Assembly: GCF_007833795.1 (NCBI RefSeq)
Contig: NZ_CP032703.1
Location: 62,001 to 126,000, forward strand
Length of the DNA stretch: 64,000 nt
Origin: Candidatus Pantoea soli
GTDB lineage: Bacteria > Pseudomonadota > Gammaproteobacteria > Enterobacterales > Enterobacteriaceae
Direction of reading: 5' to 3'
The notes under the pieces are model-generated. The model worked only from the letters and a program-made list of their open reading frames with translations. It was not told the origin of the DNA and did no database searches. Position numbers and translations under genes: made by a program. Of the stretch, positions 13,333 to 48,106 are shown piece after piece; positions within the stretch are counted from its first letter, which is position 1; every line of letters begins with the position of its first letter.

Positions 13333-15828
13333 TTAGCTGCTGATCAAAATAAGCGGCGCGCTGTAGCTGGCATTTTCCAGCGCGATGCTGTCGGCGATGG
13401 TATAGGTTTCTCCATTCAGAACATTGCGGTACTGGCGATGCGCCAGCGATTCGTTGAGTGCGACAAGGGTATGGCCCCATTGCGCGTCACTGAAAATCAG
13501 GCGCGGCGCGATCACCAGTAGCGCGCTGTCGCTGTCCTGACGGGCAAACGCCACCACTTTTTCCGGATGTTCACCCGTCACGCTGAGCGGCTGGTAATCA
13601 CCAAAGCGGAACAGCTGCGGATGATCGCGGCGCAGATGCAGCACGCGGGCAATGATCTGCTGCTTCAGCCGGCCACTCAGCCAGTCCTGCTGACAGGTGA
13701 AATCCGGCGCTGAGGCCGTGTCCAGCTGCTGCGTCAGTTGCGCAAAATCGGGTTCACGACGGTTATCGGGATCCACCAGACTGAAATCCAGCGCTTCGCA
13801 GCCCTGATAAATATCCGGCACGCCCGGGGCAGTAAGCTTGATGACCGTTTGCGTCAGGCTGTTGACCAGCCCGGCGCGGATAAAAGGTTGCAGCGCGTGG
13901 CTGAAATCATCGAGGAAGGCCCGGTTGTCGGCCGCCAGCAGGTGACGGGCATACGACAGCACCGCCTTTTCATAAGGTTCATTGTTGTCTGCCCAGTCTG
14001 TACGCAGCTTAGCTTCGCGCAGCGCTTTCTCCACAAACGGAATAAAACGTTCGCACAGCGCCGCCAGCGCCTGCGTGTCATCCGGCTGCAGCGTGGCGGG
14101 CCAGACGCCCGCCAGTGCCTGATACAGCATCCACTCTACCGCCGGTTCCGGTGCCGGCTCCCCGTCGGAGGTGTCCAGGCAGGACTGATTCAGCTGCCGC
14201 CAGCGCGTGACATTTTCTGCCCACAGCGCCGGCGCTTCACTCAGGGTATAGAGGCGCGCACGCGCATCCTCACCCCGTTTGGTATCGTGCGTAGAGGTAG
14301 TAGAGAGCGCATCAGGCTGGTGGGTCAGGCGCGTCTGCATCTCTTCATGAAAATGGCTGAGTGAAAACGCATGCGGCAGCGGTTCGGCGCCCACCTCGTT
14401 GATGGCCAGCGCCACGTGATTGCGGAAAAACAGCGTGTCTTCCACCGCTTTCGCCATCAGCGGTCCGGTAAGCTGCTGAAAACGGGTGCGGAACTCGGTG
14501 GCATCGCGCTCGGCCTCTTCGGTGACGGCACCCAGCAGCAGCGCCTGAAGGAAGCTCAGCGCCGCCGGTGACGCACTGTGTTTGACCTGTTCCAGCACCT
14601 GCAGCAGCAGCTCCTCGCCAGCCAGTGGCATCCCGGCAGGCTGACCATAGGTGCGATACACCGGGAAAGCGATCAGCAATTCGCGCAGTGCTACGTGCAG
14701 TTCCGCTTCGCCAACGTGACGGTGCTCCTGCTGCGCAACGCGGGTGGCGATGCCCAGCAAACGGGCAAACTCGCCGGCAAAATTGCGGTCCACCATCAGC
14801 TCACGCGCCGCCCGCAATCCGGTAGCAACATCATTACGCTGACCGGTTATCGCCTCATAGGCCAGATGCAGCATATCAATCTGGCTGTCATCAATCAGCG
14901 CATGGGACAGCGCGGCGATAAATTCATAGCCGGTAGTTCCCGAAATCGGCCACTCCTCTGGCAGCTGTTCACCTTCGGCAAGGATTTTTTCCACCGTGAT
15001 GTAACAGTGTTCGCCCGCTGCCTGACGCAGCTGCTGCAGATAGCCAAGCGGATCGGCCAGGCCATCAACGTGATCCACGCGCAGACCGTCCACGATACCG
15101 GCATGGACCAGTTCCAGAATCAGCCGGTGTGAATCCGCGAAGACCGCCGGATCTTCCACCCGGACGCCCACTAAACCGGTAATTTCAAAGAAGCGGCGGT
15201 AAGAGAGATTGCTGCGCGCGGTGCGCCAGCTGGTCAGCTGCCACGGCTGCCGGGCGTGTAACTGCGCAATCGCGGCCGGATCGCGCAGTGCCAGCACCTC
15301 GCTTTCCCGTCCCTGCCAGCTGGCGGGCGTCAGCGGATATTCGCTGTCGTAGTATGCCAGCACCGGTTTGCCGCTGGTGGCGGAGGCTTTGACGGACAGG
15401 TCGCCCTGTTCCAGCACGCGCTCAAATTCATCGCCGAGGAATGGCAGCGTCAGCTTGCGTGACCAGTCAATATCGAAGTAGCGCGCATACTGGCTGGCTT
15501 CGCCATGCTCAATCACATCATGCCACCAGGCATTTTCCAGTGACGCCGCCATGTGGTTGGGCACAATGTCCAGAACCAGCCCGATACCCGCCTGCTGCAG
15601 CGCTGCGGCAAGGCGGTCGAAACCGGCACGGCCGCCTATCTGCGGGTCGATCTCGTTGGCGTCCGTCACATCGTAACCGTGGGTGGACCCCTGCGTGGCG
15701 GTAAAAATTGGCGACGCATAAAGGTGACTGATGCCCAGCTGTTGCAGATAAGGCACCAGCGCCGCCGCGCGGTCAAATGTCATGCCATTGCGAAACTGAA
15801 TACGGTAAGTCGCGGTTGGAATACTCAT
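13333..15828 (-). CDS. treY: maltooligosyltrehalose synthase
   Basis: 831 residues. GH13_26 features: ATYRIQFRNGMTFDRAAALVPYLQQLGISHLYASPI at the N-terminus, DIVPNHMA (region I), the nucleophile in GLRVDHVDGLADP, the acid in TVEKILAEGEQLP and the THDTKRGEDARARL motif. TreY isomerises the reducing-end alpha-1,4 glucose of a maltodextrin to alpha-1,1, giving maltooligosyltrehalose. The upstream frame could open at 15852, but the ATG at 15828 overlaps the treZ stop as ATGA and gives the family N-terminus MSIPTATYRIQF. It sits between treZ and glgX. Confidence 0.95.
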   Translation of the reverse strand: MSIPTATYRIQFRNGMTFDRAAALVPYLQQLGISHLYASPIFTATQGSTHGYDVTDANEIDPQIGGRAGFDRLAAALQQAGIGLVLDIVPNHMAASLENAWWHDVIEHGEASQYARYFDIDWSRKLTLPFLGDEFERVLEQGDLSVKASATSGKPVLAYYDSEYPLTPASWQGRESEVLALRDPAAIAQLHARQPWQLTSWRTARSNLSYRRFFEITGLVGVRVEDPAVFADSHRLILELVHAGIVDGLRVDHVDGLADPLGYLQQLRQAAGEHCYITVEKILAEGEQLPEEWPISGTTGYEFIAALSHALIDDSQIDMLHLAYEAITGQRNDVATGLRAARELMVDRNFAGEFARLLGIATRVAQQEHRHVGEAELHVALRELLIAFPVYRTYGQPAGMPLAGEELLLQVLEQVKHSASPAALSFLQALLLGAVTEEAERDATEFRTRFQQLTGPLMAKAVEDTLFFRNHVALAINEVGAEPLPHAFSLSHFHEEMQTRLTHQPDALSTTSTHDTKRGEDARARLYTLSEAPALWAENVTRWRQLNQSCLDTSDGEPAPEPAVEWMLYQALAGVWPATLQPDDTQALAALCERFIPFVEKALREAKLRTDWADNNEPYEKAVLSYARHLLAADNRAFLDDFSHALQPFIRAGLVNSLTQTVIKLTAPGVPDIYQGCEALDFSLVDPDNRREPDFAQLTQQLDTASAPDFTCQQDWLSGRLKQQIIARVLHLRRDHPQLFRFGDYQPLSVTGEHPEKVVAFARQDSDSALLVIAPRLIFSDAQWGHTLVALNESLAHRQYRNVLNGETYTIADSIALENASYSAPLILISS

Positions 15829-17609
15829 TGCGCAGCTCCCTGGGCCAGACACACGATAATCGAATGCTGCGGCAACGCACCGCTCTCCTGCGGCCAGGCA
15901 AAAATGGTCTTGCCTGCCATCTCCGGCAGCGGTTGGGTTTGCTCACCAATGTTCAGCGCCATCGACAGTTCGCCCTGCGGGAACTGCCAGCGCACGGCAA
16001 CATAGCCGGGTGCGGTATGCAGCACGCTACCGCAGCCGCCCGGTGCATCGGCCAGCAGCGGGACCAGGTGTTGCTGACGCACTTGCAGCAGCTGACGCGT
16101 CAACGCCAGCCAGGCTTTGCCCTCGTCGCTGTGAGTTTTTGCCCAGTCAAGTTTTGAGCGGGTAAAGGTCTCTTCGGCGTTCGGGTCCGGCACGTTTTCA
16201 TCATGACCGGCATGGCCGGTGAACTCTTTTGCCCGGCCTTCACGCACTGCTTTTGCCAGATCGCCGTGGAAGTCGGTAAAGAACAGGAACGGCTGGGTCT
16301 CGCCATACTCTTCGCCCATAAACAGCAGCGGAATGTGCGGCGACAGCAGCAGGGTAGCCAGCAGCACTTTGGTGCGGTCGCTGCCTGCCAGCGTAATCAG
16401 ACGATCGCCCTGTGCCCGGTTGCCGACCTGATCGTGGTTCTGAATAAAATCCACGAAGGCAACCGGTGGCTGGCCCGCGCTGGGGACTCCCCGCGCTTCA
16501 CCACTCTGCGGGGAGACTTCGCCCTGATAGGCAAAGCCTTCGGTCAGAATGCGGGCAATGCGTTTTTCCGGTGCCTGAGCGAAATCCTGGTAATAGGCAT
16601 GCGTTTCGCCGGTGGCAAACACGTGAATGGCATTATGGAAATCATCGTTCCACTCGCCGCTGAACAGCGGCGTATTCCCGTTTTCATCGCGCGGGTGGAG
16701 GAAAATCACGTTGCGCGAATCCTCAGTGGTGAGGTGAATCGGCCGCTGCGGAATCTCGCGCCGGATGCGTTCAGCAATCTCAATCAGCACGTGCTGTGCG
16801 GAGCTGTCTTCAATCTGATCGATGGCGTCAAAGCGCAGACCATCCAGATTAAACTCCTTCAGCCAGTACAGCGGCGCTTCCATGATATAGCGGCGTGCGG
16901 CGTCCACGTCATAGGCGATGCCCGCACCCCACGGCGTCATCCGCTCTTCATGGAAGAACTGCGGGGCCAGCAAGGGCAGATAGTTGCCTTCCGGCCCGAA
17001 GTGGTTAAGCACAATGTCCAGCACCACGGATAAGTTCAGCGCATGCGCCGCATCGACAAAGGCTTTGAAATCATCCGGCGAACCATAGGCGGAATGCGGC
17101 GCATACAGCAGCACGCCGTCATAACCCCAGCCACGGTTGCCCCCAAACTGCGACACCGGCAGCACCTCAATCATGGTAATACCCAGTTCTGCCAGCGCAG
17201 GCAGGCGGGCGATGGCGGCCTGGAAGGTGCCTTCCGCGGTGAAGGTGCCAATATGCAGCTCATACACCACGCTCTCCTGCCAGGGACGGCCCTGCCAGTG
17301 CGGCTGCTGCCAGTGGTAGTGCTGAGGATCGATCACCAGCGACGGACCGTTTACCTCATCTCGCTGGGCGCGTGCCGCCGGGTCGGGCACGACGGTGCCA
17401 TCGGCCAGCACGTAGTTATACTCTGCGCCGTGCTGCAGCCCATCCAGCGTCAGGCTAAACCAGCCGTCCGCGTCAGATTGCATGGCGTGATCCTGCCCTT
17501 CTGCACGCAGTGTGATGTGCTGCTGACCCGGTGCCCAAAGGCGAAAACGCACGGTGCCGTCCGCAAGGATTTCAGCACCCCAGGATTTTTCCAGTGTTGT
17601 GGATTCCAT
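15825..17609 (-). CDS. treZ: malto-oligosyltrehalose trehalohydrolase
   Basis: 594 residues, first gene of the trehalose operon. An N-terminal CBM48/E-set domain (WGAEILADGTVRFRLWAPGQQHITL) is followed by a GH13_10 barrel: ELHIGTFTAEGTFQAAIARLPALAELGITMIEVLP, DIVLNHFGPEGNY, nucleophile motif DGLRFDAIDQI, acid in LTTEDSRN and FIQNHDQVGNR. TreZ releases free trehalose from the TreY product, so treZ-treY-glgX makes trehalose from glycogen without UDP-glucose. Trehalose protects against osmotic stress and drying. The stop overlaps the treY start by 4 bases. Confidence 0.95.
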   Translation of the reverse strand: MESTTLEKSWGAEILADGTVRFRLWAPGQQHITLRAEGQDHAMQSDADGWFSLTLDGLQHGAEYNYVLADGTVVPDPAARAQRDEVNGPSLVIDPQHYHWQQPHWQGRPWQESVVYELHIGTFTAEGTFQAAIARLPALAELGITMIEVLPVSQFGGNRGWGYDGVLLYAPHSAYGSPDDFKAFVDAAHALNLSVVLDIVLNHFGPEGNYLPLLAPQFFHEERMTPWGAGIAYDVDAARRYIMEAPLYWLKEFNLDGLRFDAIDQIEDSSAQHVLIEIAERIRREIPQRPIHLTTEDSRNVIFLHPRDENGNTPLFSGEWNDDFHNAIHVFATGETHAYYQDFAQAPEKRIARILTEGFAYQGEVSPQSGEARGVPSAGQPPVAFVDFIQNHDQVGNRAQGDRLITLAGSDRTKVLLATLLLSPHIPLLFMGEEYGETQPFLFFTDFHGDLAKAVREGRAKEFTGHAGHDENVPDPNAEETFTRSKLDWAKTHSDEGKAWLALTRQLLQVRQQHLVPLLADAPGGCGSVLHTAPGYVAVRWQFPQGELSMALNIGEQTQPLPEMAGKTIFAWPQESGALPQHSIIVCLAQGAAQ

Positions 17610-25887: not shown

Positions 25888-27702
25888 TCAGCCGCGCTCA
25901 GTTAATGCCTGCGCCGCACAAATCAGCGCCAGATGGCTCAGCCCCTGCGGCATATTACCGCGCCACTCATCGGTGCGGACGTCAAACATTTCATTGAAGG
26001 TTTCGACATTGCCGCGCTGGCACAGCTTATGCAGTATCGCCTGCATCGCGCGCTCTGCGTCGGCGCAGTCGCCCATCGCTGCCCGGGCTTCTGCCAGCCA
26101 GAACGAGCAGGCAATAAACGTGCTCTCTTCCTGCTCAACACCGCTGTAGCGATAAAGCATATCGGTGTTATGCCCGAGATGCTGGCGAATGGCCTGATAG
26201 GTGGCCCGCATGCGCGCCGGATTAACGCGGCTGCCGTAAGCGTGTACCAGCGCCAGCGCCGCATCAAGCCGGTCGCCGCTGCCGGGATAAAACAGATAAG
26301 CCTGGTGCTGTTCCGACCAGCAGTGCGTCTCTATCCACTCACTGATACGATCCCGTTCGCGCTGCCAGCGCTGCAGCCAGGTCGGCTCAATGTGGCGCGC
26401 TTCTGCCAGCGCAACCGCCCGATCCAGCGCCAGCCAGCAGGCCATTTTGGAATGCGTATAGTGCTGCTGTTCCGGCAGCTCCCAGATACCGCTGTCTTTC
26501 TGTCGCCATAAATCAGCGCAGTGGTTCGCCAGTTCGCCCAGCATACGGGATGTCGCCAGATCCAGAATGTGGCCGGCCTGGATAAACAGCTCGGCCGTGG
26601 CGAGCATGTCGCCATACATGCTGAGCTGCACCTGATCGCGCGCATTGTTGCCGATGCGCACCGGTCGTGAATCATGATAACCCTGCAGTGGCGGATAATA
26701 TTCTGCGGGTACGGTATTCCCCTCCAGCGTGTAGCAGGCGCGCAGGGCGGTACCGTGACGAATAATGGTTTTCGACAGCCAGGAAAACGCTGCTTTACAG
26801 TCCTCCAGCGCGCCGAGGAAAACAAACGCTTTAATGATCAGGCAGGCGTCGCGTACCCAGGCGTAGCGGTAGTCGTAATTCTTTTCGCCGCCAATGCCCT
26901 CTGGCAGCGACGTGGTCGCCGCTGCGGCCAGCGCCCCGGTTGGGGAGTACCATAAAAACTTCAGCGACAGGGCCGAACGGCGCACGTGTTCGGCGAAGCG
27001 CCCGCGATAGCTCAGGCTGCGTGTCCAGTCGCACCAGGCGGTGTGGCTGGTTTCAATGCGCGTGTCGATGGCATCCAGATCCGGTACGGCCAGCGGCTCG
27101 CGCTCGGTGACCAGCAGCGCCGCCAGCGCGTGACTGCCTGGTGAGGTCCGCAGCGTCGCGTCGATGCGCTCATCATCACGCTGAACAATCTGCCAGGCTT
27201 CGCTGGTGCGCAGCATCGCCATTAAATCGGCAATATGGTAGACATCACCCTGTTCTGTGCTGTCGCGCCATGGCGAACGGGTTTCAGCCTGCGTACCAAA
27301 GCGCAGCGTCAGCCGCAGTTCCACTTCTCCTTCCACGCCTTCAATACGCCGTGCCAGTTCGCTCCACGGCAAACGTCCCGCCAGCGTGCTGTTCAGTGAC
27401 TCTGTCAGCAGCACGCTGCCCTGTTCTGTAATAAAACGGGTTTCAAGCACGTTGCTGTCGTCACGGTACGCGCGTTCGGTATGGTATGGCGAGGTGGGTT
27501 CAATCTGGAAAAAACCGCCGATGGCAGGATCCAGCAGGCGATCAAACAGAGGAGGGGAGTCGAGGTTAGGCGCACACCACCAGTCAATAGCGCCGTCGGG
27601 GGCAATCAGCGCGACCGAGCGCCCTTCGCCGATAGCCGCGTAATCCCCCAGCCGGGCAAACCCCTTTTCGCGCATGGGCGAGTGCAGAATCTGATTGTTC
27701 AT
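25888..27702 (-). CDS. GH15 glucanase / trehalase-like enzyme
   Basis: 604 residues from ATG 27702. The N-terminal beta-sandwich begins YAAIGEGRSVALIAPDGAIDWWCAPNLDSPPLFDRLLDP and the (alpha/alpha)6 barrel contains NYDYRYAWVRDACL, the general-acid motif SGIWELPEQQHYTHSKMACWLALDRA and the general-base region VEQEESTFIACSFWLAEA. This is the GH15 group that includes bacterial glucoamylase-like enzymes and actinobacterial trehalases. With treZ-treY-glgX 8 kb away, trehalose or maltodextrin hydrolysis is an attractive guess. There is no signal peptide, so it should be cytoplasmic. Confidence 0.88.
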   Translation of the reverse strand: MNNQILHSPMREKGFARLGDYAAIGEGRSVALIAPDGAIDWWCAPNLDSPPLFDRLLDPAIGGFFQIEPTSPYHTERAYRDDSNVLETRFITEQGSVLLTESLNSTLAGRLPWSELARRIEGVEGEVELRLTLRFGTQAETRSPWRDSTEQGDVYHIADLMAMLRTSEAWQIVQRDDERIDATLRTSPGSHALAALLVTEREPLAVPDLDAIDTRIETSHTAWCDWTRSLSYRGRFAEHVRRSALSLKFLWYSPTGALAAAATTSLPEGIGGEKNYDYRYAWVRDACLIIKAFVFLGALEDCKAAFSWLSKTIIRHGTALRACYTLEGNTVPAEYYPPLQGYHDSRPVRIGNNARDQVQLSMYGDMLATAELFIQAGHILDLATSRMLGELANHCADLWRQKDSGIWELPEQQHYTHSKMACWLALDRAVALAEARHIEPTWLQRWQRERDRISEWIETHCWSEQHQAYLFYPGSGDRLDAALALVHAYGSRVNPARMRATYQAIRQHLGHNTDMLYRYSGVEQEESTFIACSFWLAEARAAMGDCADAERAMQAILHKLCQRGNVETFNEMFDVRTDEWRGNMPQGLSHLALICAAQALTERG

Positions 27703-27728
27703 GATGCGTCCCTGTGAGCCAGCCTCGC

Positions 27729-27756
27729 TACGTGGCCGCCCGCAGGCAGCCACGTA
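27729..27756 (-). terminator. hairpin between the YghA-like and GH15 genes
   Basis: TACGTGGC (27729-27736) and GCCACGTA (27749-27756) pair around a 12-base loop, between the YghA-like stop and the GH15 start. It has no T tract and is only a candidate. Confidence 0.4.
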
Positions 27757-27783
27757 TCACATCAGGTTAAGCCGTCAGCCACC

Positions 27784-28677
27784 TTACAGGGTGCCGGTAC
27801 CGCCATCCGAGCACCAGACCTGGCCAGAGGTAAAGCTGTTGGTGGTCTCTGCAAAGGTCACATAGAGCGGCGCAATCTCTGCCGGCTGGCCCGGACGGCC
27901 CAGCGGTGCAGTGGCACCAAACTGCTCAACTTTTTCCTGTGGCTGACCACCGCAAACCTGCAGCGGGGTCCAGTACGGGCCAGGTGCCACAGCATTGACG
28001 CGAATCTGCTGTTCGCCCAGCTGTTTGGCCAGCGCTTTGGTAAAGGCCGCAATCGCCGCTTTGGTTTGCGCATAATCCAGCAGAATGGCGCTTGGCTCAT
28101 AGGCCTGCACGGAGCTGGTATTAATAATGGACGAACCAGCAGGCAGATATTCCAGCGCCGCTTTGGTTATCCAGAACATCGCATAAACATTGGTCTTAAA
28201 CGTGGCGTCAAAATCTTCCGTCGATAAGGTACGAATAGATTCATTAAATTGCTGACGGCCGGCGTTATTAACCAGAATATCCAGACCATCTAATTTTTCA
28301 GCCGCTTCTTTGACCAGCTGCTGACAAAAGGACTCAGAGCGAATATCACCCGGAATAGCGACCGCTTTACGCCCTTCCGCTTCAATTAATTTCACCACTT
28401 CTGCCGCATCTGACTCCTCATCCGGCAGATAGTTGATCGCCACATCTGCGCCTTCACGGGCATAGGCAATGGCAACGGCGCGGCCGATACCGGAATCGCC
28501 GCCGGTAATCAGCGCTTTACGGCCGGTCAGGCGGCCGGTGCCGCGATAGCTGGTTTCACCGTGGTCAGGACGTGGTTCCATCTTACTGGCCAATCCAGGA
28601 ATCGGCTGATGCTGTTTATTAAACGGCGGCTTCGGATATTCCTGGGTAATCAGCGTTTTGTTAGTAAATGAAGTCAT
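27784..28677 (-). CDS. YghA-like short-chain dehydrogenase
   Basis: 297 residues. Classical SDR marks: the ALITGGDSGIGRA cofactor motif (about 55-67), NNAGRQQ, the catalytic Ser in INTSSVQAYEP and Tyr-x3-Lys in YAQTKAA. The N-terminal extension QEYPKPPFNKQHQPIPGLASKMEPRPDHGE is the hallmark of the YghA/glucose-dehydrogenase-like stress SDRs (related to Bacillus general-stress proteins such as YdaD and YhxC). Substrate uncertain. An AAGGAG site precedes the ATG at 28677. Confidence 0.9.
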   Translation of the reverse strand: MTSFTNKTLITQEYPKPPFNKQHQPIPGLASKMEPRPDHGETSYRGTGRLTGRKALITGGDSGIGRAVAIAYAREGADVAINYLPDEESDAAEVVKLIEAEGRKAVAIPGDIRSESFCQQLVKEAAEKLDGLDILVNNAGRQQFNESIRTLSTEDFDATFKTNVYAMFWITKAALEYLPAGSSIINTSSVQAYEPSAILLDYAQTKAAIAAFTKALAKQLGEQQIRVNAVAPGPYWTPLQVCGGQPQEKVEQFGATAPLGRPGQPAEIAPLYVTFAETTNSFTSGQVWCSDGGTGTL

Positions 28678-28979
28678 ACTTATCTCCTTGTACAGTGGAA
28701 CGAGTAAATTAAGCCTGGCAGAGATGTGATATTTGTCACGTAAAAAAGTGTGCGCCTGCGTTTTATTTCGCCGGATGTGTTTGCCGTTGCTGAATATTTT
28801 TGGTTACAAAATCACTAACGTAATGATTATTTTACCTGCTTTGCAAGTGGCAGCCGATATAAGCGCATCGGCAGAATGGCAGGGTGAAAAATCCGCTCTA
28901 AGCTCAATGTCATAACCTGAAAAAATACCCGGCCAGTCACGGGTAATAAATGAAGAGCACTGTCGTTAACGAGGCAAAA
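28678..28979. other. divergent promoter region, YghA-like / formate dehydrogenase
   Basis: About 300 bases between divergent start codons, AT-rich between 28780 and 28850. It must carry the promoter of the four-gene formate oxidase operon. I see no confident operator and no FhlA-type or FNR-type box that I would defend. No gene. Confidence 0.4.
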
Positions 28980-31952
28980 ATGAGCGAAGCACAATGCACC
29001 ATTCTTTTTAATGGTGAGCGTCTGAGCGGAAACGCCGATCAGCCTTTGATTGATTTTCTGCAAGCGCAGGGAAAAAAACTGCCTCACGTCTGCTATCACC
29101 CGGCGCTGCCGCCGTTGCAAAGCTGTGATGTCTGCTGGGTGGAGGTTGATGGCGAACAGGTACGCGGCTGCACGTTGCGCACCCGTGAGGGGCTGGAAGT
29201 GGTCAGTCAGAGCGCTGTGTTGCAGGCGGCACAGCAGGAAGGCATGGATCGTATCCTTAACCGGCATGAACTGTATTGCACGGTGTGTGAGCACAATACC
29301 GGTGACTGTACGCTGCACAATACCGTCGCCGATATGCACATCCCGATTCAGTATTATCCTTACGAACGTAAACCTTACCACAAAGATCACAGCAATCCGT
29401 TTTACACCTACGATCCCGACCAGTGCATTTTGTGTGGCCGCTGCGTGGAGGCTTGTCAAAACGTGGAGGTGAATGAAACGCTTTCCATTGACTACAGCGC
29501 CGATCATCCACGCGTGTTATGGGACGGCGGCACGCAGATTGCCGGTTCCAGCTGCGTCAGCTGCGGCCACTGCGTGACGGTGTGCCCCTGCAATGCGCTG
29601 CTGGAGAAAACCATGCAGCCTGACGCCGGGCCCTTTACCCACATGGACGAAGATCTGAAGCGCCCGCTGATCGACTTTGTCAAAAGCATGGAAAACAGCA
29701 TTGGCATGGAGCCCATTACCGGCATTTCCCTGATCGATGATGCGCTGCGTAAAACAGAAATCAAAAAAACCAAAACGGTGTGCACCTATTGCGGCGTGGG
29801 CTGCAGTTTTGAAGTCTGGACACGCGATCGCCACATCCTGAAAATTCAGCCGGTGGCAGAGGCGCCGGTAAACGGCATCTCAACCTGCGTAAAAGGCAAA
29901 TTTGGCTGGGATTTTGTTAACAGCCCGAATCGCGTCACCACACCGTTAATTCGTGAGAATGGTCGCTTTCGCCCGGCCAGCTGGGATGAAGCACTGGCGC
30001 GCGTTGCCGAGGGGCTGAGCGCGGTGGCGCGCCAGCACGGCGGTAATGCCATCGGCTTTATCGGCTCCAGTAAAGCCAGCAATGAAGAAGCCTACCTGAC
30101 GCAGAAAATTGCCCGCCTGATTTTTGGCACCAATAACGTCGATAACTCTTCCCGCTACTGTCAGAACCCCGCGACCGAAGGATTGTTCCGTACGGTAGGC
30201 TACGGCGGGGATGCCGGAACGCTGCGCGATCTGCAGCAGACCGATCTGATCATCACCGTAGGCAGCAATCTGGCGGAAAACCATCCGGTGTTTGCCTCAC
30301 ATATCAAACAGAGCCACAAACATCGCGGGCAGAAGCTGCTGGTGGTGGACCCGCGCCGGCATGAAATGGCCGATCGCGCCGACTGCTTCCTGCGCATCCG
30401 TCCCGGCAGTGACATGGTATGGGCCTCGGCGATGGCAAAATATATGTTCGATCACGGCTATGCTGATGAGGCATTCCTCGCCGAGCGCGTGAATCAGGTA
30501 GAGGCCTATCGTGCCTCGCTGGCGCCGTTTACGCTGGCGTTTGCCAGTGAGCAGACCGGCCTGAGCGTGGCGCAGCTTACCGAGGCAGCAGAGATGATTG
30601 GCCAGGCGGGCAGCGTCTGCCTGCTTTGGGCCATGGGTATTACTCAGCACAGCCACGGTGCCGACACCAGCACCGCGCTGTCTAATCTGCTGCTGGTGAC
30701 CGGAAATTATGGCCGGCCTGGCACCGGCGGTTATCCCATGCGCGGTCACAATAATGTGCAGGGTGCCAGCGACTTTGGCTGTCTCAGCAACGTTTATCCT
30801 GGTTATGAGAAAGTCAGCGATGCGCAGGTACGTGAAAAATGGGCGCGTGCGTGGGGCGTCGATCCCGGGGCGCTGTCCGATGAGCCCGGGCTGGATAACT
30901 TTATGATGATTCAGGAAGCGCATGACCATAAGCTGCGCGCCATGTACATCATCGGCGAAGACACTGCTTTTTCCGACGCGGACGCCACCAAGGTGCATCA
31001 GGCATTCAGCGAGCTCGATTTTATGGTGGTGCAGGATATTTTTATCAGCCATACCGCGCAGTTTGCTGATGTGATTCTGCCTGGCTGCCCAAGCCTGGAA
31101 AAAGAGGGCACGTTCGTGAATACCGAGCGGCGCATCCAGCATTTTTCCGCCGCGCTGCCGCCGCTGGGTGACAGCCGTCCTGACTGGCAGATTCTCACTG
31201 ACCTCGCGGCGCATCTGGGCCATCCGTGGCGCTATCCGAATCCGGGCGCCATCATGGCGGAAGCCGCCAGCATTGCTGAACTGTTTGCTGGGGTCAGCTA
31301 TGAGCAGCTGGTGGGCTGGCAATCGCAGCTGTGGCCGGTGAAAGCCGATGGCAGCAGCACGCCGTTGCTTTATACCGAGGCTTTCGCCTTCCCGGATGGC
31401 AAAGCGCGTTTGTATCCGCTGACGTGGCGGCCGCCAATGGAAGAACCCGACGCCGAATTTGATTTGCTGCTGAATAATGGCCGCATGCTGGAACACTTCC
31501 AGTCCACTAACCAGACCGGGCAGGGCGGCCGGATGAAATCACTGTCGCCTAACTGGTTTGTCGAAATCTCGCCGCAGCTGGCGCAGCAGCGTCAGCTCAG
31601 CGAAGGCGACTGGGTGACGCTGCGATCGCGGCGTGGTGAGTTGCAGGTGCCGGTGGTGGTGACCGATCGGGTTTCCGGCAACGTGCTGTTCATTCCGATC
31701 CACCACGGTAAGCCCGGCGTAAATGGCCTGACCGGCGATCATCACGACCCGGACGTGAACACGCCCGCCTATAAAGAGATTGCGGTCAGCCTGCAGAAGC
31801 TGGCGCGCGCACCGCAACCACACCCGATTCCACTGCACAATTTCCGGCATGGTCAGCGTACGCCGCTGGACCATCTGCCGGTGGAAGTGAAATGGCAGCA
31901 GCCGGAGTACCGTCTGCCCCCTGAACATGTTACGCATCCGGAGAAAAGCTAA
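28980..31952 (+). CDS. NuoG-like molybdo-formate dehydrogenase, ForC/YrhE type
   Basis: 990 residues from ATG 28980 (GAGG site; the ATG at 28950 lacks one). In order: a plant-type [2Fe-2S] domain (C38, C49, C52, C64), a NuoG-type H96-C100-C103-C110 cluster, two [4Fe-4S] ferredoxin clusters (C149/152/155/159 and C192/195/198/202), the catalytic-domain cluster C268/271/275/303, bis-MGD domains and the molydopterin C-terminal domain. The metal ligand is Cys394 in SSRYCQNPATEG, not selenocysteine. It should oxidise formate in the cytoplasm. The next gene encodes a DUF1641 protein, the partner of Bacillus/Staphylococcus ForC enzymes, and a bd oxidase follows, so electrons probably go to quinone. 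Confidence 0.9.
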   Translation: MSEAQCTILFNGERLSGNADQPLIDFLQAQGKKLPHVCYHPALPPLQSCDVCWVEVDGEQVRGCTLRTREGLEVVSQSAVLQAAQQEGMDRILNRHELYCTVCEHNTGDCTLHNTVADMHIPIQYYPYERKPYHKDHSNPFYTYDPDQCILCGRCVEACQNVEVNETLSIDYSADHPRVLWDGGTQIAGSSCVSCGHCVTVCPCNALLEKTMQPDAGPFTHMDEDLKRPLIDFVKSMENSIGMEPITGISLIDDALRKTEIKKTKTVCTYCGVGCSFEVWTRDRHILKIQPVAEAPVNGISTCVKGKFGWDFVNSPNRVTTPLIRENGRFRPASWDEALARVAEGLSAVARQHGGNAIGFIGSSKASNEEAYLTQKIARLIFGTNNVDNSSRYCQNPATEGLFRTVGYGGDAGTLRDLQQTDLIITVGSNLAENHPVFASHIKQSHKHRGQKLLVVDPRRHEMADRADCFLRIRPGSDMVWASAMAKYMFDHGYADEAFLAERVNQVEAYRASLAPFTLAFASEQTGLSVAQLTEAAEMIGQAGSVCLLWAMGITQHSHGADTSTALSNLLLVTGNYGRPGTGGYPMRGHNNVQGASDFGCLSNVYPGYEKVSDAQVREKWARAWGVDPGALSDEPGLDNFMMIQEAHDHKLRAMYIIGEDTAFSDADATKVHQAFSELDFMVVQDIFISHTAQFADVILPGCPSLEKEGTFVNTERRIQHFSAALPPLGDSRPDWQILTDLAAHLGHPWRYPNPGAIMAEAASIAELFAGVSYEQLVGWQSQLWPVKADGSSTPLLYTEAFAFPDGKARLYPLTWRPPMEEPDAEFDLLLNNGRMLEHFQSTNQTGQGGRMKSLSPNWFVEISPQLAQQRQLSEGDWVTLRSRRGELQVPVVVTDRVSGNVLFIPIHHGKPGVNGLTGDHHDPDVNTPAYKEIAVSLQKLARAPQPHPIPLHNFRHGQRTPLDHLPVEVKWQQPEYRLPPEHVTHPEKS

Positions 31953-32437
31953 TGGCCGAACCCATCCACTATCAGCCCACCCCGACGCGCACCGAACCCA
32001 CCGCCCGGGAGGCGCTTAACGATCTGCTGGAAAACCTGCATCAGCATGGTTTTCTGCGCCTGGCCAATGACGTGGTAAAAGCCAATAACGATATCGGCAA
32101 AATCATCGCGGCCGGGCTGAACCGCCCCGGATCGCAGAATGCGGCGCAAAATCTGTCACTGCTGTTTATGACGCTCAGTACCATTCCGCCCGAGCGCTTT
32201 AACCACGTGCTGCTGGCGCTGCGTGATGCCATGCTGGCGATGAAGCCGGCCGCTGACACCACCCAGCAGGAGAAAGCCGCACCGGGACTCAGCGGTGTTA
32301 TGAAACTGCTCAACGACGAAAGCCTGTGGCAGGGCATTCGTCCGCTGCTGGCGGCGCTGGAAACCTTCTCACGTGAAATGCAGCGTGATGAGGAGAAGCC
32401 GATCAGCCGCTACAGCGGTAAGCCGAGCCGTGAATAG
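31952..32437 (+). CDS. DUF1641 protein, ForE-like partner of the formate dehydrogenase
   Basis: 161 residues, mostly helical: REALNDLLENLHQHGFLRLANDVVKANNDIGKIIAAGLNRPGSQNAAQNLSLLF, then a variable Thr/Gln linker, then LSGVMKLLNDESLWQGIRPLLAALETFSREMQ. These two blocks are the DUF1641 pattern (YjgD/YrhD of Bacillus). In Firmicutes such proteins pair with the adjacent formate dehydrogenase and are proposed to pass electrons to the quinone pool. Here the start codon shares one base with the dehydrogenase stop (TAATG), implying fixed stoichiometry. No transmembrane helix is evident. Confidence 0.85.
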   Translation: MAEPIHYQPTPTRTEPTAREALNDLLENLHQHGFLRLANDVVKANNDIGKIIAAGLNRPGSQNAAQNLSLLFMTLSTIPPERFNHVLLALRDAMLAMKPAADTTQQEKAAPGLSGVMKLLNDESLWQGIRPLLAALETFSREMQRDEEKPISRYSGKPSRE

Positions 32438-33797
32438 CGCTGAGTGGGTACTGATGATCGCCCGGGTGCAATTTGCCCTGACCATGGGCATGCACATCAC
32501 CCTGGCGGCGCTGACGCTGGGGCTGGCACCCTTTCTGGTCTGGTTTGAAGCCCGCTGGCTATGGGGAAAAAAACCGGAAGCGCGGCAGGCGCTGCATTTC
32601 TGGATCAAAATTTTCGCGCTGACGGTCGCAATTGGCACCGTATCGGGCGTGGTGATGGAGTTCCAGTTTGGTACGCACTGGTCCGGCTTCGCCAGTAAAG
32701 CCGGTGGCATTGTCGGTCCGCTGATGCTGTATGAAGTGCTGGTGGCGTTTTTTCTCGAATCCGCGCTGACCGGCGTGATGCTGTTTGGTTTCGATCGCGT
32801 CAGGCCGGGCGTGCACTTTGCCGTCACCTGTCTGGTCGCGGTCGGCGCGGTGCTGAGCGCCTTCTGGATTCTGGCGGCAAATTCATGGATGCAGACGCCG
32901 GTACAATTTACCCTTAATGACAGCGGTCAGTTGATTCCGGACAGCGGCTGGAGCCTGCTGGCCGCCCCCTCGTTTGGCTGGCGACTGACGCATATGCTGC
33001 TGGCTTCCTGGATTAGCGTGGCCTTCTGGCTGGGCGGCATTGCCGCCTGGCGGTTACTGCAGCATCCGGGTGAACGCGCCAGCCGCCTGATGCTGAGCGG
33101 GGCGCTGACGGTGTCGCTCTGCGCCGTGCCGCTGCAGGTAGTGACGGGCGATCTGCAGGGTGAAAATACGCTGGCCCATCAGCCGGCCAAACTGGCCGCC
33201 ATTGAGGGCAGCTGGCAGGCGCCCGCTCCCGGCGAGGGCGAACCGCTGCGCCTGTTCGCGATCCCCGATCAGCAACAGCAGCGCAACCATCTTGAAGTGG
33301 CCATTCCGGCCATTGGCTCGCTCTATTTGCGGCACAATCTGACCGGGCACATTCAAAGCCTGCGCGAATTTGCGCCAGATACGCTTCCGCCGGTGCTGCC
33401 GGTGTTTTTTGCCTTTCGTCTGATGGTGGGAATGGGGTTGCTGATGCTGCTGGTCAGCGTACTGGCGAATATCCAGCGCTGGCGCGGGCGGCTCTATCAC
33501 TCGCGGCGTCTGCTGCGGCTGCTGGCGTGCTGCTCACCGCTGGGATTCATTGCGCTGCTCTCAGGCTGGATTGTCACCGAAGTGGGACGACAGCCGTGGA
33601 CCGTGTACGGCGTGCTGCGCACTGCTGACAGTGTTTCTCCGCTGTCGCTGAGCAGCACGGTGATGATTTTTATCGCGATATTGCTGGTGTACGGGCTGGG
33701 TTTTGCCCTTGGTCTCTATTATCTGCTGCGGCATGTGGCGGGGCCGTTGCCGGATGGCGAGGCCGTGGTCGCTGAATCCGTCCAGACCCCTGCCTGA
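32430..33797 (+). CDS. cioA: cytochrome bd-type (CIO-like) quinol oxidase subunit I
   Basis: 455 residues from GTG 32430, which overlaps the upstream stop by 8 bases and gives the normal N-terminus ahead of ARVQFALTMGMH. Haem ligands and key acids align with E. coli CydA: H22 (b595), H188 and M332 (b558), E102 and E110 in YEVLVAFFLE, and the quinol-site GDLQGENTLAHQPAKLAAIEG with K254 and E259. WIVTEVGRQPWTVYGVLRT is present. The Q loop is short, so it belongs to the CIO/short-Q-loop group, often less sensitive to cyanide. It reduces O2 to water with quinol from the inner membrane. Confidence 0.93.
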   Translation: MNSAEWVLMIARVQFALTMGMHITLAALTLGLAPFLVWFEARWLWGKKPEARQALHFWIKIFALTVAIGTVSGVVMEFQFGTHWSGFASKAGGIVGPLMLYEVLVAFFLESALTGVMLFGFDRVRPGVHFAVTCLVAVGAVLSAFWILAANSWMQTPVQFTLNDSGQLIPDSGWSLLAAPSFGWRLTHMLLASWISVAFWLGGIAAWRLLQHPGERASRLMLSGALTVSLCAVPLQVVTGDLQGENTLAHQPAKLAAIEGSWQAPAPGEGEPLRLFAIPDQQQQRNHLEVAIPAIGSLYLRHNLTGHIQSLREFAPDTLPPVLPVFFAFRLMVGMGLLMLLVSVLANIQRWRGRLYHSRRLLRLLACCSPLGFIALLSGWIVTEVGRQPWTVYGVLRTADSVSPLSLSSTVMIFIAILLVYGLGFALGLYYLLRHVAGPLPDGEAVVAESVQTPA

Positions 33798-33807
33798 GGA
33801 CGCTGTC

Positions 33808-34749
33808 ATGATGGCCGATCTCTCTGCTGCGCTGCTGCTGTTCTCTCTGCTGATGTATCTGGCGCTGGATGGCACCGATCTGGGAACCGGCATGCTGTTT
33901 TATTGCTTCGATCAGCCGCAGCAGCGGCAGTGGATGGCTCATACGCTGCTGCCGGTCTGGGATGCCAATGAAACCTGGCTGGTTCTGCTGGCGGGCGGCA
34001 TGCTGGCGCTGTTCCCGCCGCTTTACAGTCTGCTGCTGCACACGCTGATGCTGCCGCTGATGCTGTTTTTGCTGGCGCTTTTTCTGCGGGCGCTGGCGCT
34101 GGCTTACCGGGCGCAGGTGCACACCACCTTTCAGCGCTGGCTGGACCGGCTGATGATCGTAAGTTCGCTGCTGGCCGCGTTTTTACCCGGCTGGATCAGC
34201 GGCGTGATTCTGGTGTCGCGTCCGCCGGTGGGGATTGTGCCGGACCTGTCGCTAACGCCGCTGCTGTGCGGTGTGGGACTGGTGGCGATTGATATTGTCA
34301 TGGGCTGCTGCTGGCTGTGCTGGCGGCTGGGCGAGCCGCTGGTGGAGCGAGCGCGTACGCTGTGTACGCTGTGGTGGACCCTTGCGCTGGCCTGCTTTGT
34401 TGCCGTCCTGCTGCTGGAACCCGCGCTGTGGCAGCAAAGCTGGCAGCGCTGGCCAGGAAAAATTCTGCTCAGCGTGCTGCCGCTGCTGTGGCTGGCCCAG
34501 CTGGTCGCCCTGTGGCGTGAAGCGATGGTCACGCTGTTAATGCTGACGCTGCTCACCATTGGCGTGGTGGTCGGCGCGCTGGCCTGCGGTTTATATCCCT
34601 GGCTGCTGCCCGGCCAGCTGGCCATTCAGCAGCAGGCTGCCTCGCCGGTCACGCAGGGCTTTGTCCTGACCGGGATGGTCATTCTGCTGCCGCTGACGCT
34701 GCTGTATCACAGCTGGTCATTCTGGGTGTTCAAGCGGCATCCGCACTGA
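33808..34749 (+). CDS. cioB: cytochrome bd-type (CIO-like) oxidase subunit II
   Basis: 313 residues, shorter than E. coli CydB (379). The N-terminal signature is intact: LALDGTDLGTGMLFYCFDQPQQRQWMAHTLLPVWDANETWLVLLAGGMLALFPPLYSLLLH. About eight helices follow, ending in a HSWSFWVFKRH tail. Two adjacent ATGs (33808, 33811) follow a GAGGA site 10 bases after the cioA stop. No CydX/CbdX-like small frame follows; the convergent gene ends 4 bases later. It completes the operon formate dehydrogenase-DUF1641-oxidase. Confidence 0.92.
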   Translation: MMADLSAALLLFSLLMYLALDGTDLGTGMLFYCFDQPQQRQWMAHTLLPVWDANETWLVLLAGGMLALFPPLYSLLLHTLMLPLMLFLLALFLRALALAYRAQVHTTFQRWLDRLMIVSSLLAAFLPGWISGVILVSRPPVGIVPDLSLTPLLCGVGLVAIDIVMGCCWLCWRLGEPLVERARTLCTLWWTLALACFVAVLLLEPALWQQSWQRWPGKILLSVLPLLWLAQLVALWREAMVTLLMLTLLTIGVVVGALACGLYPWLLPGQLAIQQQAASPVTQGFVLTGMVILLPLTLLYHSWSFWVFKRHPH

Positions 34750-44981: not shown

Positions 44982-45735
44982 AGCGATCGCCTTACGTAAC
45001 CTCACCAAACGCTTTTCCGGCGTCACTATTCTGGATGCGGTAGATCTGGATCTCCCCGCCGGTTCTGTCACGGTGATCCTCGGACCGTCCGGCTCGGGCA
45101 AATCCACGCTGCTGCGCTGTATTAACCATCTGGAAAAACCCGATGGTGGCACTATCCGCATCGGCGGCGAAATCATTGGCTACCGGCAGAAAGGCAAGGC
45201 GCTGCATGAGTTAAGCAGCGGCGAGATCGCCCGGCAGCGGGCAGAGATCGGCATGGTCTTCCAGCAGTTCAATCTGTTTCCGCACCGCACCGTGCTGCAG
45301 AACATCATTGATGCACCGATGCGGGTGAAAAAACAGAGCCGCCAGCAGGCAACCCGCAAAGCGCAGTCGCTGCTGCAGCAGGTGGGGCTGGCGGGCCGCG
45401 AAGCCGAGTGGCCACAGAATCTTTCTGGCGGGCAGCAGCAGCGTGTGGCGATTGCGCGCGCGCTGGCGATGGACCCCGGCGTGATGCTGTTTGATGAACC
45501 CACATCGGCGCTGGACCCGGAGCTGGTAGGTGAAGTGCTGCAGGTGATCAAACAGCTGGCGCACTCCGGTATCACCATGGTGATCGTCACGCACGAGATC
45601 GGCTTTGCGCGCAAAGTGGCGGACAATATTGTCTTCATGGAAGGCGGGAAGATCGTGGCGGCAGGCCCGGCGCAGCAGGTACTGGATGACGCGGAGAACC
45701 ATCGCGTCAGAAACTTCATTGCAACGGTGCTGTAG
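44974..45735 (+). CDS. polar amino acid ABC transporter ATP-binding protein (GlnQ-like)
   Basis: 253 residues with Walker A GPSGSGKST (about 37-45), the Q loop FQQFNLFPH, signature LSGGQQQRVAIARAL, Walker B VMLFDEPTSALDPELVGEVL and the H loop TMVIVTHEIGFA. These place it in the polar amino acid (GlnQ/HisP) ATPase family. An AGGAG site precedes ATG 44974. Its stop codon sits in the loop of a terminator hairpin, so transcription into the following reductase gene may be attenuated. Confidence 0.94.
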   Translation: MAEAIALRNLTKRFSGVTILDAVDLDLPAGSVTVILGPSGSGKSTLLRCINHLEKPDGGTIRIGGEIIGYRQKGKALHELSSGEIARQRAEIGMVFQQFNLFPHRTVLQNIIDAPMRVKKQSRQQATRKAQSLLQQVGLAGREAEWPQNLSGGQQQRVAIARALAMDPGVMLFDEPTSALDPELVGEVLQVIKQLAHSGITMVIVTHEIGFARKVADNIVFMEGGKIVAAGPAQQVLDDAENHRVRNFIATVL

Positions 45736-45748
45736 GCACCGTATTTTT
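45724..45748 (+). terminator. terminator hairpin overlapping the ATPase stop codon
   Basis: ACGGTGC (45724-45730) pairs with GCACCGT (45736-45742), with the TAG stop within the 5-base loop, followed by ATTTTT. A ribosome reading to the stop would melt the hairpin, which could link translation of the ATPase to read-through into the BisC-like gene. Confidence 0.6.
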
Positions 45749-45766
45749 CGTTTTCTCAGGACCACT

Positions 45767-48106
45767 ATGACGCAAAAAGCGGTGATGCACAGCGCGCACT
45801 GGGGGGCTTTTACTGCCCGGCTACAGGGCGATCGGCTGGCGACGCAACCTTTTCAGGGCGATCCCGATCCCAGCCCGCTGCTGCAGAATTTCACCACGGC
45901 GCTGCGCCATCCGGCTCGCGTCACGCAGCCGATGGCACGTCGCGGCTGGCTGGAGCAGGGACCGGGCCCGGATGAGCGGCGCGGAAAGGATGAGTGGGTG
46001 GCGCTAAGCTGGGACGAGGCTTATGCGCGGGTGGCGGATGAACTGCAACGCGTGGGCGATCGCTACGGGCCGGCCGGCATATTTGGCGGCTCTTATGGCT
46101 GGTCCAGCGCCGGGCGGTTTCATCACGCCCAGAGTCAGGTGCACCGTTTTCTGAATACCGTCATGGGCGGCTATGTACGCTCGGTCAACAGCTACAGCTC
46201 CGGCGCCGCCTCGGTGCTGCTGCCGCATATCGTTGGTGACATGAATGAAATTGCGCGCCGCGGCGTCAGCTGGGAGGAGATTGCGCAGCACAGTGACATC
46301 GTGCTGGCGTTTGGCGGGCTGGCGCTGAAAAATGCCCAGGTTGCCAGCGGCGGTCTCAGCGAGCACACGGAGCGCAGCTTCATGCAGCAGGCGGCGCAGC
46401 GCGGCACGCGCTTTATTTCCGTCAGCCCGCTGAAAACCGATCTGCCGGATGAGGCACAGGGAGAATGGCTGGCGCTGCGGCCCGGCACTGACGCCGCACT
46501 GATGCTGGGCATATTGTCAGTGCTGCTGAGCGAAAAACGCACCGACGAGGCGTTTCTGGCGCGGTATACCGTCGGCTGGCCGCAGATGGTGGCCTATCTG
46601 CGCGGTGAAGAGGATGGTACGGTGCGCGATGCAGTCTGGGCAGCCGCGATCTGCGGCGTCAGTGCCGCTGCCATCACCCGACTGGCGCGCCAGCTGCATG
46701 GCCGGCGCGTGCTGATTACGGTGGCACACGCCCTGCAGCGCGCCGGGCATGGCGAACAGCCGGTCTGGCTGGGACTGGTGCTGGCGGCCGCCCTGGGGCA
46801 GCCCGGACTCCCCGGCGGCGGCTATACCTATGCGCTTGGCGCTTTAGGGCACTATGGCAAGCACCACAATCTGGTGAGTTTTCCGGCGTTGCCGCAGGGC
46901 CGTAACGGCATAGACCGCCTGATCCCGGTGGCGCGCATCGCCGATATGCTGCTGCATCCCGGTACGCAATTTGACTACAACGGCCGCCGTTTAACCTATC
47001 CGCACGTTCGCCTGGCATTGTGGGCAGGCGGTAATCCTTTCCATCATCATCAGGATCTGGCGCGACTGCGTCAGGCGTTTTGTCAGCTGGATACGCTGAT
47101 CGTGCATGAGAGCGTCTGGACTGCGACCGCGCGGCATGCCGATATCGTGCTGCCTGCCACGCTGTCGCTGGAGCGGGAGGACATCGGCGCCGCACCGACC
47201 GATCGGCATCTGGTTGCCATGCAGCCGGTGGCTGAACCCTGTGGCGAAGCCCAGGATGATTACACAATCTTTACCATGCTGGCGCGCCGCCTGGGCCGTG
47301 AGCAGGCGTTTACCGAAGGTCGCGATGCACGCGGCTGGCTGCAGCATCTGTATGGGCAGCTGCAGGAGAAGCTGGCGGCGCATGCAGTGACGCTGCCGGA
47401 CTTTGCTACCTTCTGGCAGGCAGGGGTGCTGACGCTGCCGCAGCTGAAGGACGGCGGGCGCCTGATCAATGCCTTCCGCGCCGATCCGATCGCCGCGCCG
47501 CTACCGACGCCGAGCGGCAAAATTGAAATCTACTCCGCGACCATCGCCGGTTTTGCTTATCCCAGCTGTCCGGGGCATCCGGTGTGGCTGACGCCACCGC
47601 AGCAGCCCGATGCCGACCATCCGTTCTGGCTGATTGCAAACCAGCCTGCCACGCGTCTGCACAGCCAGCTGGATTTTGGGGAATACAGCCTGAGCGGTAA
47701 GCGGCAGGGGCGTGAACAGTGCAGCCTGCATCCGGATGATGCCCGGCGGCTGAATATCCGCGACGGCGACATTATCGAGCTATACAACATGCGCGGGCAC
47801 GTGCTGGCCAGCGCGCGCGTGACGCCGCACATCATGCCGGGCGTGGTGCAGTTACCCACCGGCGCCTGGTACGATCCGGTGGATCCGGCGGCGCGGCGTC
47901 CGCTGTGCCGGCACGGTAACCCCAATGTGCTGACGCTGGACAAAGGGACCTCGGCGCTGACGCAGGGATGCAGCGGGCAGCTTACCGTCGTGCAGGTGCG
48001 TAAATATCAGGGCGAACTGACGCCGGTGCAGGCGTTTACGCCGCCGCAGGCGGTTGCCATAACCGGCAGCCCGGCCCCTGCGGCGACGCATGGCGACCCG
48101 TCTTAG
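45767..48106 (+). CDS. bisC: molybdopterin S/N-oxide reductase, BisC-like
   Basis: 779 residues, like E. coli BisC (777). There is no twin-arginine signal, so it is cytoplasmic. Features: HSAHWGAFTARLQGDRL at the N-terminus, SWDEAYARVADELQRVGDRYGPAGIFGGSYGWSSAGRFHHAQSQVHRFLNTVMGGYVRSVNSYSSGAASVLLPHI with Ser as the molybdenum ligand, AHALQRAGHGEQPVW, LALWAGGNPFHHHQD and the C-terminal LHSQLDFGEYS domain. BisC reduces biotin sulfoxide and methionine-S-sulfoxide. The gene follows an amino acid ABC importer by 31 bases, so the oxide may be taken up by that system. The exact substrate remains open (TorZ/BisC relatives are similar). Confidence 0.88.
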   Translation: MTQKAVMHSAHWGAFTARLQGDRLATQPFQGDPDPSPLLQNFTTALRHPARVTQPMARRGWLEQGPGPDERRGKDEWVALSWDEAYARVADELQRVGDRYGPAGIFGGSYGWSSAGRFHHAQSQVHRFLNTVMGGYVRSVNSYSSGAASVLLPHIVGDMNEIARRGVSWEEIAQHSDIVLAFGGLALKNAQVASGGLSEHTERSFMQQAAQRGTRFISVSPLKTDLPDEAQGEWLALRPGTDAALMLGILSVLLSEKRTDEAFLARYTVGWPQMVAYLRGEEDGTVRDAVWAAAICGVSAAAITRLARQLHGRRVLITVAHALQRAGHGEQPVWLGLVLAAALGQPGLPGGGYTYALGALGHYGKHHNLVSFPALPQGRNGIDRLIPVARIADMLLHPGTQFDYNGRRLTYPHVRLALWAGGNPFHHHQDLARLRQAFCQLDTLIVHESVWTATARHADIVLPATLSLEREDIGAAPTDRHLVAMQPVAEPCGEAQDDYTIFTMLARRLGREQAFTEGRDARGWLQHLYGQLQEKLAAHAVTLPDFATFWQAGVLTLPQLKDGGRLINAFRADPIAAPLPTPSGKIEIYSATIAGFAYPSCPGHPVWLTPPQQPDADHPFWLIANQPATRLHSQLDFGEYSLSGKRQGREQCSLHPDDARRLNIRDGDIIELYNMRGHVLASARVTPHIMPGVVQLPTGAWYDPVDPAARRPLCRHGNPNVLTLDKGTSALTQGCSGQLTVVQVRKYQGELTPVQAFTPPQAVAITGSPAPAATHGDPS

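Follow-up and report, generated by a model that had tools for sequence, protein, structure and literature searches.

A forC-forE-cioA-cioB operon of Pantoea as a probable short respiratory chain from formate to oxygen

Gene content and organisation of the locus

The subject of this analysis is a four-gene operon, forC-forE-cioA-cioB, carried by a 64,000-nucleotide stretch of the genome of Candidatus Pantoea soli (contig NZ_CP032703.1, positions 62,001 to 126,000; hereafter the window, in whose numbering coordinates are given). The first gene, forC (28980..31952, plus strand, 990 amino acids), encodes a ForC-type formate dehydrogenase, identified by Pfam and NCBIfam matches, its relatives in the PDB and its active-site residues, and is followed by forE (31952..32437, plus strand, 161 amino acids), whose product is a partner of ForE/DUF1641 type, predicted to be helical and identified by a profile match to ForE1. 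The other two genes specify a cytochrome bd of cyanide-insensitive oxidase (CIO) type, with subunit I encoded by cioA (32430..33797, plus strand, 455 amino acids), which begins at a GTG within forE, and subunit II by cioB (33808..34749, plus strand, 313 amino acids). All four are co-directional, and as a preliminary description of the locus had stated, forC and forE overlap by 1 nt (TAATG), forE and cioA overlap by 8 nt (GTGAATAG, 32430..32437, plus strand), and a 10-nt gap separates cioA from cioB. A second in-frame ATG lies 30 nt 5' of the chosen forC start, which was set at 28980 because most relatives align from that methionine. The gene 3' of cioB is convergent and ends at 34754.

Identity of the gene products

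ForC contains the Pfam domains Fer2_4, NuoG-type 4Fe-4S, Molybdop_Fe4S4, Molybdopterin and Molydop_binding, and so carries a NuoG-like N-terminal iron–sulfur (Fe-S) extension on a molybdenum–bis-pyranopterin guanine dinucleotide (Mo-bis-PGD) subunit. It scores 787 bits against NCBIfam TIGR01591 (cut-off 666), and its best relative in the PDB is YjgC/ForC1 (8rqz, 9gzq) at 1214.7 bits, the next other protein scoring 543 bits. At the molybdenum site stand Cys394-Gln395 and Arg588-Gly-His590, the Cys-Gln plus Arg-Gly-His (CQ/RGH) signature by which the ForC subfamily is defined (PMC8808070). The Cys, Gln, Arg and His are identical in all 39 aligned ForC rows, as are the 18 cysteines of the Fe-S motifs, and the cluster content would, by analogy, be that of the ForC described in the same paper. 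Together the signature, the domains and the match to YjgC/ForC1 bear out the earlier assignment as a NuoG-like formate dehydrogenase of ForC type.

The biochemistry of this subfamily comes from Bacillus subtilis, in which the pair of ForC and ForE (ForCE) oxidises formate and reduces menadione, a menaquinone analogue, with the quinone activity requiring ForE, and binds menaquinone despite having no predicted transmembrane segment (PMC8808070). The two B. subtilis pairs, ForCE1 and ForCE2, both of CQ/RGH type, turn over formate with kcat values of 96 and 56 per second, respectively, when benzyl viologen is the acceptor (PMC8808070). That paper does not settle how the soluble pair makes contact with the membrane; according to a 2026 review ForCE1 is a hetero-octamer with lipids at the ForC–ForE interface, which may help membrane contact (PMC13397495). 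In the window proteins, a hydropathy scan likewise detected no transmembrane segment in ForC or ForE.

The small partner required a less direct identification. Window ForE alone gives no match to PF07849 (DUF1641) at E<=1, and a PF07849 search of its own genome came back empty; a protein search returned 67 relatives, several of them named at source as 'DUF1641 domain-containing protein' or 'YjgD, DUF1641 family'. In an alignment of window ForE with 32 of these 67 (alignment A1), PF07849 matches 18 of the 33 members at E<=1, with 1.6e-4 as the best value, and a search with the A1 profile recovers B. subtilis ForE1 (PDB 8rqz chain A) at an E of 3.4e-9 across profile positions 20–144. Because the relatives match PF07849 and the A1 profile finds ForE1, the second gene is, judged from sequence, a divergent ForE, and the original DUF1641/ForE label survives by way of the family profile, with the protein's own domain match lacking at that threshold. 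A structure model of ForE is all-helical and weak (pLDDT 51.7). In every Pantoea and second-family locus compared, forC lies 5' of forE.

CioA and CioB match PF01654 and PF02322 with 472 and 207 bits, respectively, and the Q loop of CioA is short, with about nine residues opposite E. coli CydA residues 299–371. The counterparts in CioA of the haem and quinol residues H19, E99, E107, H186, K252, E257, R391, M393 and E445 (E. coli CydA numbering, placed on CioA by alignment) do not vary across the 27 rows compared; in CioB a Trp and an Asp are kept in 26 of 26 rows, and two upstream Asp in 25 of 26, with one gap. By these domains and residues the third and fourth genes are a short-Q-loop (CIO) cytochrome bd with both subunits, as had been proposed. 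An apparent insertion in the Phytobacter CioB was rejected, because the record has a stretch of masked or undetermined bases at that place. After window cioB no gene of DUF2474 or CydX-like type was seen, and three plus-strand open reading frames of 28–47 amino acids look hydrophilic by eye; a DUF2474 gene follows cioB in two stand-alone relatives (Klebsiella and Shigella records), and we do not claim such a small gene as a universal CIO feature. Stand-alone cioAB relatives of about 48% identity occur on plasmids in E. coli, Salmonella and Shigella records, and the one examined among these (L112, IncHI1B) is one of the two relatives with a DUF2474 gene after cioB.

Conservation of the forE–cioA junction

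All 20 enterobacterial linked loci, namely the window, 16 other sampled Pantoea, Rahnella, P. ananatis and Phytobacter, have the cioA start codon, either ATG or GTG, at the same place, where cioA overlaps the end of forE by 8 nt (L126 was left out of the overlap count). In L085, which comes from a second gammaproteobacterial family, forE and cioA are separated by a 13-nt gap. At the corresponding position in Pantoea loci that lack cio the start codon has been lost in 15 of 15 cases, the triplet reading GGG, TGG, GCG, GGC or AAA and never ATG, GTG or TTG, and this loss where cioA is gone fits a role for the codon in cioA translation. The overlap, whose register is kept across linked loci, is thus a probable device of translational coupling between forE and cioA.

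Distribution and evolutionary history

Tallies of forE carriers come from samples only, and those for order, phylum, class and genus include the window genome. The gene was found in 3 of 394 genomes of the order sample (one a weak match with stops), 3 of 299 of the phylum sample, 5 of 369 of the class sample and 32 of 60 of the Pantoea genus sample. Among these 32 Pantoea, 17 (window included) run on into cioA and 15 do not, the cio-less call having been made on 3.0–6.0 kb downstream of forE; one of the 17 (L054) is counted as linked on a contig that ends inside cioA. Another set of 17 loci, which overlaps the genus sample and is not added to it, divides into 10 with cioA and 7 without. The linked order also occurs in Rahnella aquatilis, on a plasmid of P. 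ananatis TZ39 and in Phytobacter massiliensis, and the second gammaproteobacterial family has forE in 5 of 59 genomes, two of the five being linked to cioA (L085 and L126). The gene order is therefore found well beyond this genome and is not a chance arrangement; its confinement to this genome, named at the outset as a finding that would refute the proposal, is not what was observed. A 5,281-base contig (L086) holds forC-forE, with cioA absent from the remaining 1.9 kb.

Trees and counts omit the formate dehydrogenase rows L074, L075, L078, L082, L084 and L090 and the CioA rows L054 and L074 (in both cases for coverage <=80% or an internal stop), as well as the CioB rows L074 and L022; L001 was also omitted from the second CioA tree. 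The cio-less L082 and L084 are consequently unplaced on the ForC tree, and L086, because of its contig end, enters the tree with no cio label. Those cio-less Pantoea that were placed, 13 in number, group in a single clade (Shimodaira–Hasegawa-like approximate likelihood ratio test, 100) nested among cio-bearing rows, and a larger ForC tree calls for a minimum of three changes of cio state, two of which are forced by well-supported branches. Most simply, the P. agglomerans group lost cioAB and kept forCE, a loss that would make the two halves of the operon separable. Distance matrices of ForC and CioA agree with an r of 0.94 over 18 loci, a value that 0 of 10,000 permutations reached, and this agreement shows common inheritance, not function.

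The operon had been thought acquired, by comparison with E. coli. The E. coli genome collection indeed gave no DNA match to forC-forE at the sensitivity used; the host, however, is a Pantoea, the operon is old in that genus, and its GC content of 59.9% stands against 58.9% for the window. Recent acquisition was rejected, since GC gives no sign of it and the gene order is old. Two further records are set down as found: a copy on CP060162.1, a plasmid labelled Acinetobacter venetianus, is as identical to the window as that of P. eucrina, which is possibly a case of mislabelling, contamination or transfer, and a weak match to forE in another genus of the same family (L006, G198), interrupted by four internal stops, may be a decayed remnant.

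A probable short aerobic chain for intracellular formate

Taken together, these observations make it probable that the products of forC-forE-cioA-cioB form a short aerobic chain that respires formate already inside the cell, and a path from ForCE through quinone and cytochrome bd to oxygen, proposed at the outset, remains the simplest reading. ForC would oxidise formate to CO2 at its Mo-bis-PGD centre, and electrons would pass along the Fe-S clusters of its N-terminal part and reach a quinone at the ForC–ForE interface on the cytoplasmic face, after which the quinol would reduce O2 at the CIO-type cytochrome bd made from the same operon. The proton sum per formate would be HCOO- + 3 H+(in) + 1/2 O2 -> CO2 + H2O + 2 H+(out), with the effect that cytosolic formate would be removed, cytosolic acid consumed and a modest proton-motive force generated. 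FdoGHI acts at the periplasmic side; a cytoplasmic-side electron feed would forgo its redox loop and act on intracellular formate, and the likely setting would be stress or stationary phase. Formate inhibits haem-copper oxidases and bd enzymes tolerate such ligands, a chemistry that likely accounts for the pairing with a bd oxidase. Halomonas is not known to have any quinone but ubiquinone, and because ForCE occurs there the quinone may by analogy be ubiquinone, the host presumably having ubiquinone plus menaquinone. The genome also encodes one pyruvate formate-lyase (PFL), with a match to a FocA-type channel about 170 nt away, and FdhD; the first two would provide a formate source and the last would serve maturation, and both are counted in favour of such a chain.

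DUF1641 proteins may be general quinone-docking partners for soluble redox enzymes. A DUF1641 gene without forC lies in Burkholderia pyrrocinia (L120) about 5 kb from hydrogenase-4/formate-hydrogenlyase genes, and another has been described inside the [NiFe]-hydrogenase operon of Parageobacillus (P. thermoglucosidasius) (PMC12976888).

Several observations weigh against a formate chain of this kind. Cio is evidently not required by ForCE, which occurs without it in 15 of the 32 forE-bearing Pantoea loci, in 6 of 8 other loci outside Pantoea whose downstream sequence was long enough (L105–L107 and L127–L129; L105 and L106 have FdhD-like genes, by reading of translations) and in Halomonas KO116, where an annotated fdhD adjoins the pair. 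The 15 lost start codons are not independent, since 13 of these loci form the one clade and the other two are unplaced, and the decay may amount to about one event, and to few events rather than fifteen. The agreement of ForC and CioA may reflect only shared species history, and the linked CioAs form no strict clade, as the CioA of Chimaeribacter, which is without ForCE, falls among them; such a clade has an approximately unbiased test p of 0.0185 in the second tree and 0.194 in the earlier one, and Chimaeribacter may have lost forCE or there may have been two joining events. Finally, four Pantoea genomes (L074, L075, L078 and L084), three of which bear cio, have a broken or truncated forC. 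Its frame changes in L074, L075 and L084, in the first two at the same residue (about 651), and in L078 its first 200 residues are unmatched in a region without N; the cioA and cioB frames are also broken in L074, and a frame change lies in cioB of L075. These breaks are either decay or sequence error.

The same loci bear on the description of the operon as self-contained, which is not supported as worded: 15 of the 32 forE-bearing Pantoea loci have kept forCE without cioAB, and ForCE occurs without Cio elsewhere as well. The window genome moreover has a selenocysteine (Sec)-containing enzyme of FdnG/FdoG type (U-H motif, SRRKFFK signal) and three CydA homologues in all (two besides CioA), and the presence of these alongside the PFL implies that the quinone pool is shared.

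The strongest competing account we regard as possible and distinctly less probable: the two halves, each stress-induced, would be neighbours in a stress regulon, ForCE feeding and CioAB draining the general quinone pool, with the operon providing co-regulation only and any oxidase taking the formate electrons. The absence of cioAB from the P. agglomerans group and the other oxidases of the genome would suit this account, as would the membership of B. subtilis forCE1 in the general stress regulon controlled by SigB (PMC8808070). The gene context is mixed. Annotated stress genes lie close by in two of four linked plasmid regions (P. ananatis and Rahnella), and two of four stand-alone CioAB regions (Enterobacter and Chimaeribacter plasmids) adjoin genes for a general stress protein, ferritin-like proteins, manganese catalase, a short-chain dehydrogenase/reductase (SDR) and alpha-amylase, whereas the other stand-alone (Klebsiella, Shigella) and linked (P. 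dispersa, Pantoea sp. Nvir) regions have no annotated stress protein adjoining cioAB; such a context lends partial support to a stress role and also feeds the co-regulation account. What tells against co-regulation alone is that the 8-nt overlap, kept in every enterobacterial linked locus, points to co-translation, which mere co-regulation would not need, and that the order goes back far enough to be shared by Rahnella, Phytobacter and two genomes from a different family.

A more elaborate version of the chain, in which ForCE would dock on the cytoplasmic face of CioAB as a formate:O2 supercomplex with local quinol transfer that protects against formic or weak-acid stress, a condition under which haem-copper oxidases would be poisoned by formate, strikes us as unlikely. 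It is very improbable that ForC has a main role other than formate oxidation, with the Gln that replaces the usual His marking another substrate or CO2 reduction and Cio serving only tolerance of reactive oxygen species, nitric oxide or cyanide, for while ForC does have Cys-Gln rather than Cys/Sec-His and the genome already has a Sec-containing enzyme with U-H, B. subtilis ForCE1 and ForCE2 share CQ/RGH and yet oxidise formate (PMC8808070), and CO2 reduction beside an oxygen reductase would make little sense.

If the respiratory chain for intracellular formate is real, the operon would offer a compact set of genes for removing formate in an oxygen-dependent way. It ties ForCE to a quinol oxidase, and sister strains that naturally lack cio offer controls, so that the electron sink and the role are testable.

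Upstream region and genomic neighbourhood

The intergenic region (28678..28979) that separates forC from the divergent SDR gene contains, in an alignment of seven Pantoea upstream regions, a strongly conserved block at 28710–28741 with a CRP-like palindrome (TGTGATATTTGTCAC, 28725–28739) that shows small changes in three of the seven sequences. We claim no regulator, because the block is nearer the SDR gene. Sigma-70-like sites show no excess (2 found against a shuffle mean of 2.8); terminator-like sites number 13 against a shuffle mean of 6.5 (sd 2.3), 12 of the 13 within genes.

On the minus strand, 25888–28677 holds the SDR gene and a glycoside hydrolase family 15 (GH15) enzyme with a trehalase-like N-domain, and 13333–17609 holds treY/treZ-like, probable trehalose synthesis genes (by reading of translations); the presence of treY/treZ-like, GH15 and SDR genes close to the operon suggests that this is a region of stress genes. 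On the plus strand, 45605–48106 is a second molybdopterin oxidoreductase (PF00384 at 45917–47287), of BisC/TorA type by eye, 3' of an apparent polar amino-acid ABC transporter. In Pantoea sp. Nvir (L113, 11306–12700) a ClcA-annotated gene adjoins the forCE-cio cluster, and in the distant gammaproteobacterium L085 (11900–13240) a ClC-like gene, by reading, lies just 5' of forC, ClC-type neighbours that hint at a link to acid stress.

The contig that carries the window is 556,856 bases long. Because the close relatives of cioA are mostly on Pantoea plasmids of 329–742 kb, the operon is likely on a large plasmid of the LPP-1 kind; the available passages of the LPP-1 plasmid paper mention formate once, for a hydrogenase locus (PMC3505739).

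Comparison with known systems

No description of an operon joining ForCE to a cytochrome bd was found in the titles and abstract openings of the open-licence papers surveyed, and the passages available of papers on B. megaterium and Deinococcus describe no joint operon (PMC6208408, PMC1978522). A transcriptome of P. stewartii was set aside, as in its available passages 'formate dehydrogenase' and 'cytochrome d oxidase' appear separately, in two different regulons and with distant locus tags (PMC4689408). The operon is a conserved union of two known modules whose joining we did not find described, and is not a new enzyme class.

FdoGHI and FdnGHI are membrane-anchored selenoenzymes whose genes lie apart from those of the oxidase, and in this they differ from the window operon. 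The route from formate through quinone to O2, in E. coli via bd-I, is common to those enzymes in E. coli and Salmonella (PMC7005000, PMC10470504) and to the chain proposed here; in E. coli, formate dehydrogenase O, ubiquinone and cytochrome bd-I are each required for the H2O2 induced by peptidoglycan recognition proteins, and formate enhances it (PMC7005000), a precedent for the chain.

Unlike the two stand-alone CioAB relatives, the window shows no DUF2474/CydX-like gene after cioB. The formate dehydrogenases PP_0256 and PP_4596 of P. putida belong to another type, which is YdeP-like. As a second precedent, cioAB of P. putida is induced by formate, and the formate tolerance of this species depends on PP_0256 and PP_4596; unlike in the window, these genes and cioAB have distant locus numbers (PMC10308882). 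As in CIO-type cytochromes bd (PMC5322542, whose text does not contain the word 'formate'), the window oxidase has a short Q loop and keeps the haem-ligand and quinol-site residues.

The closest likeness is to B. subtilis ForCE1 (YjgCD) and ForCE2 (YrhED), with which the window pair shares the ForC domain plan, the CQ/RGH signature, a ForE-type gene directly 3' and the lack of detected transmembrane segments (structures 8rqz, 8rr0 and 9gzq). It departs from them in three respects: window ForE is recognisable only by profile, the host presumably has ubiquinone beside menaquinone, and where the B. subtilis operons, in the passages available, consist of catalytic and partner genes (PMC8808070), cioAB here lies in the same operon.

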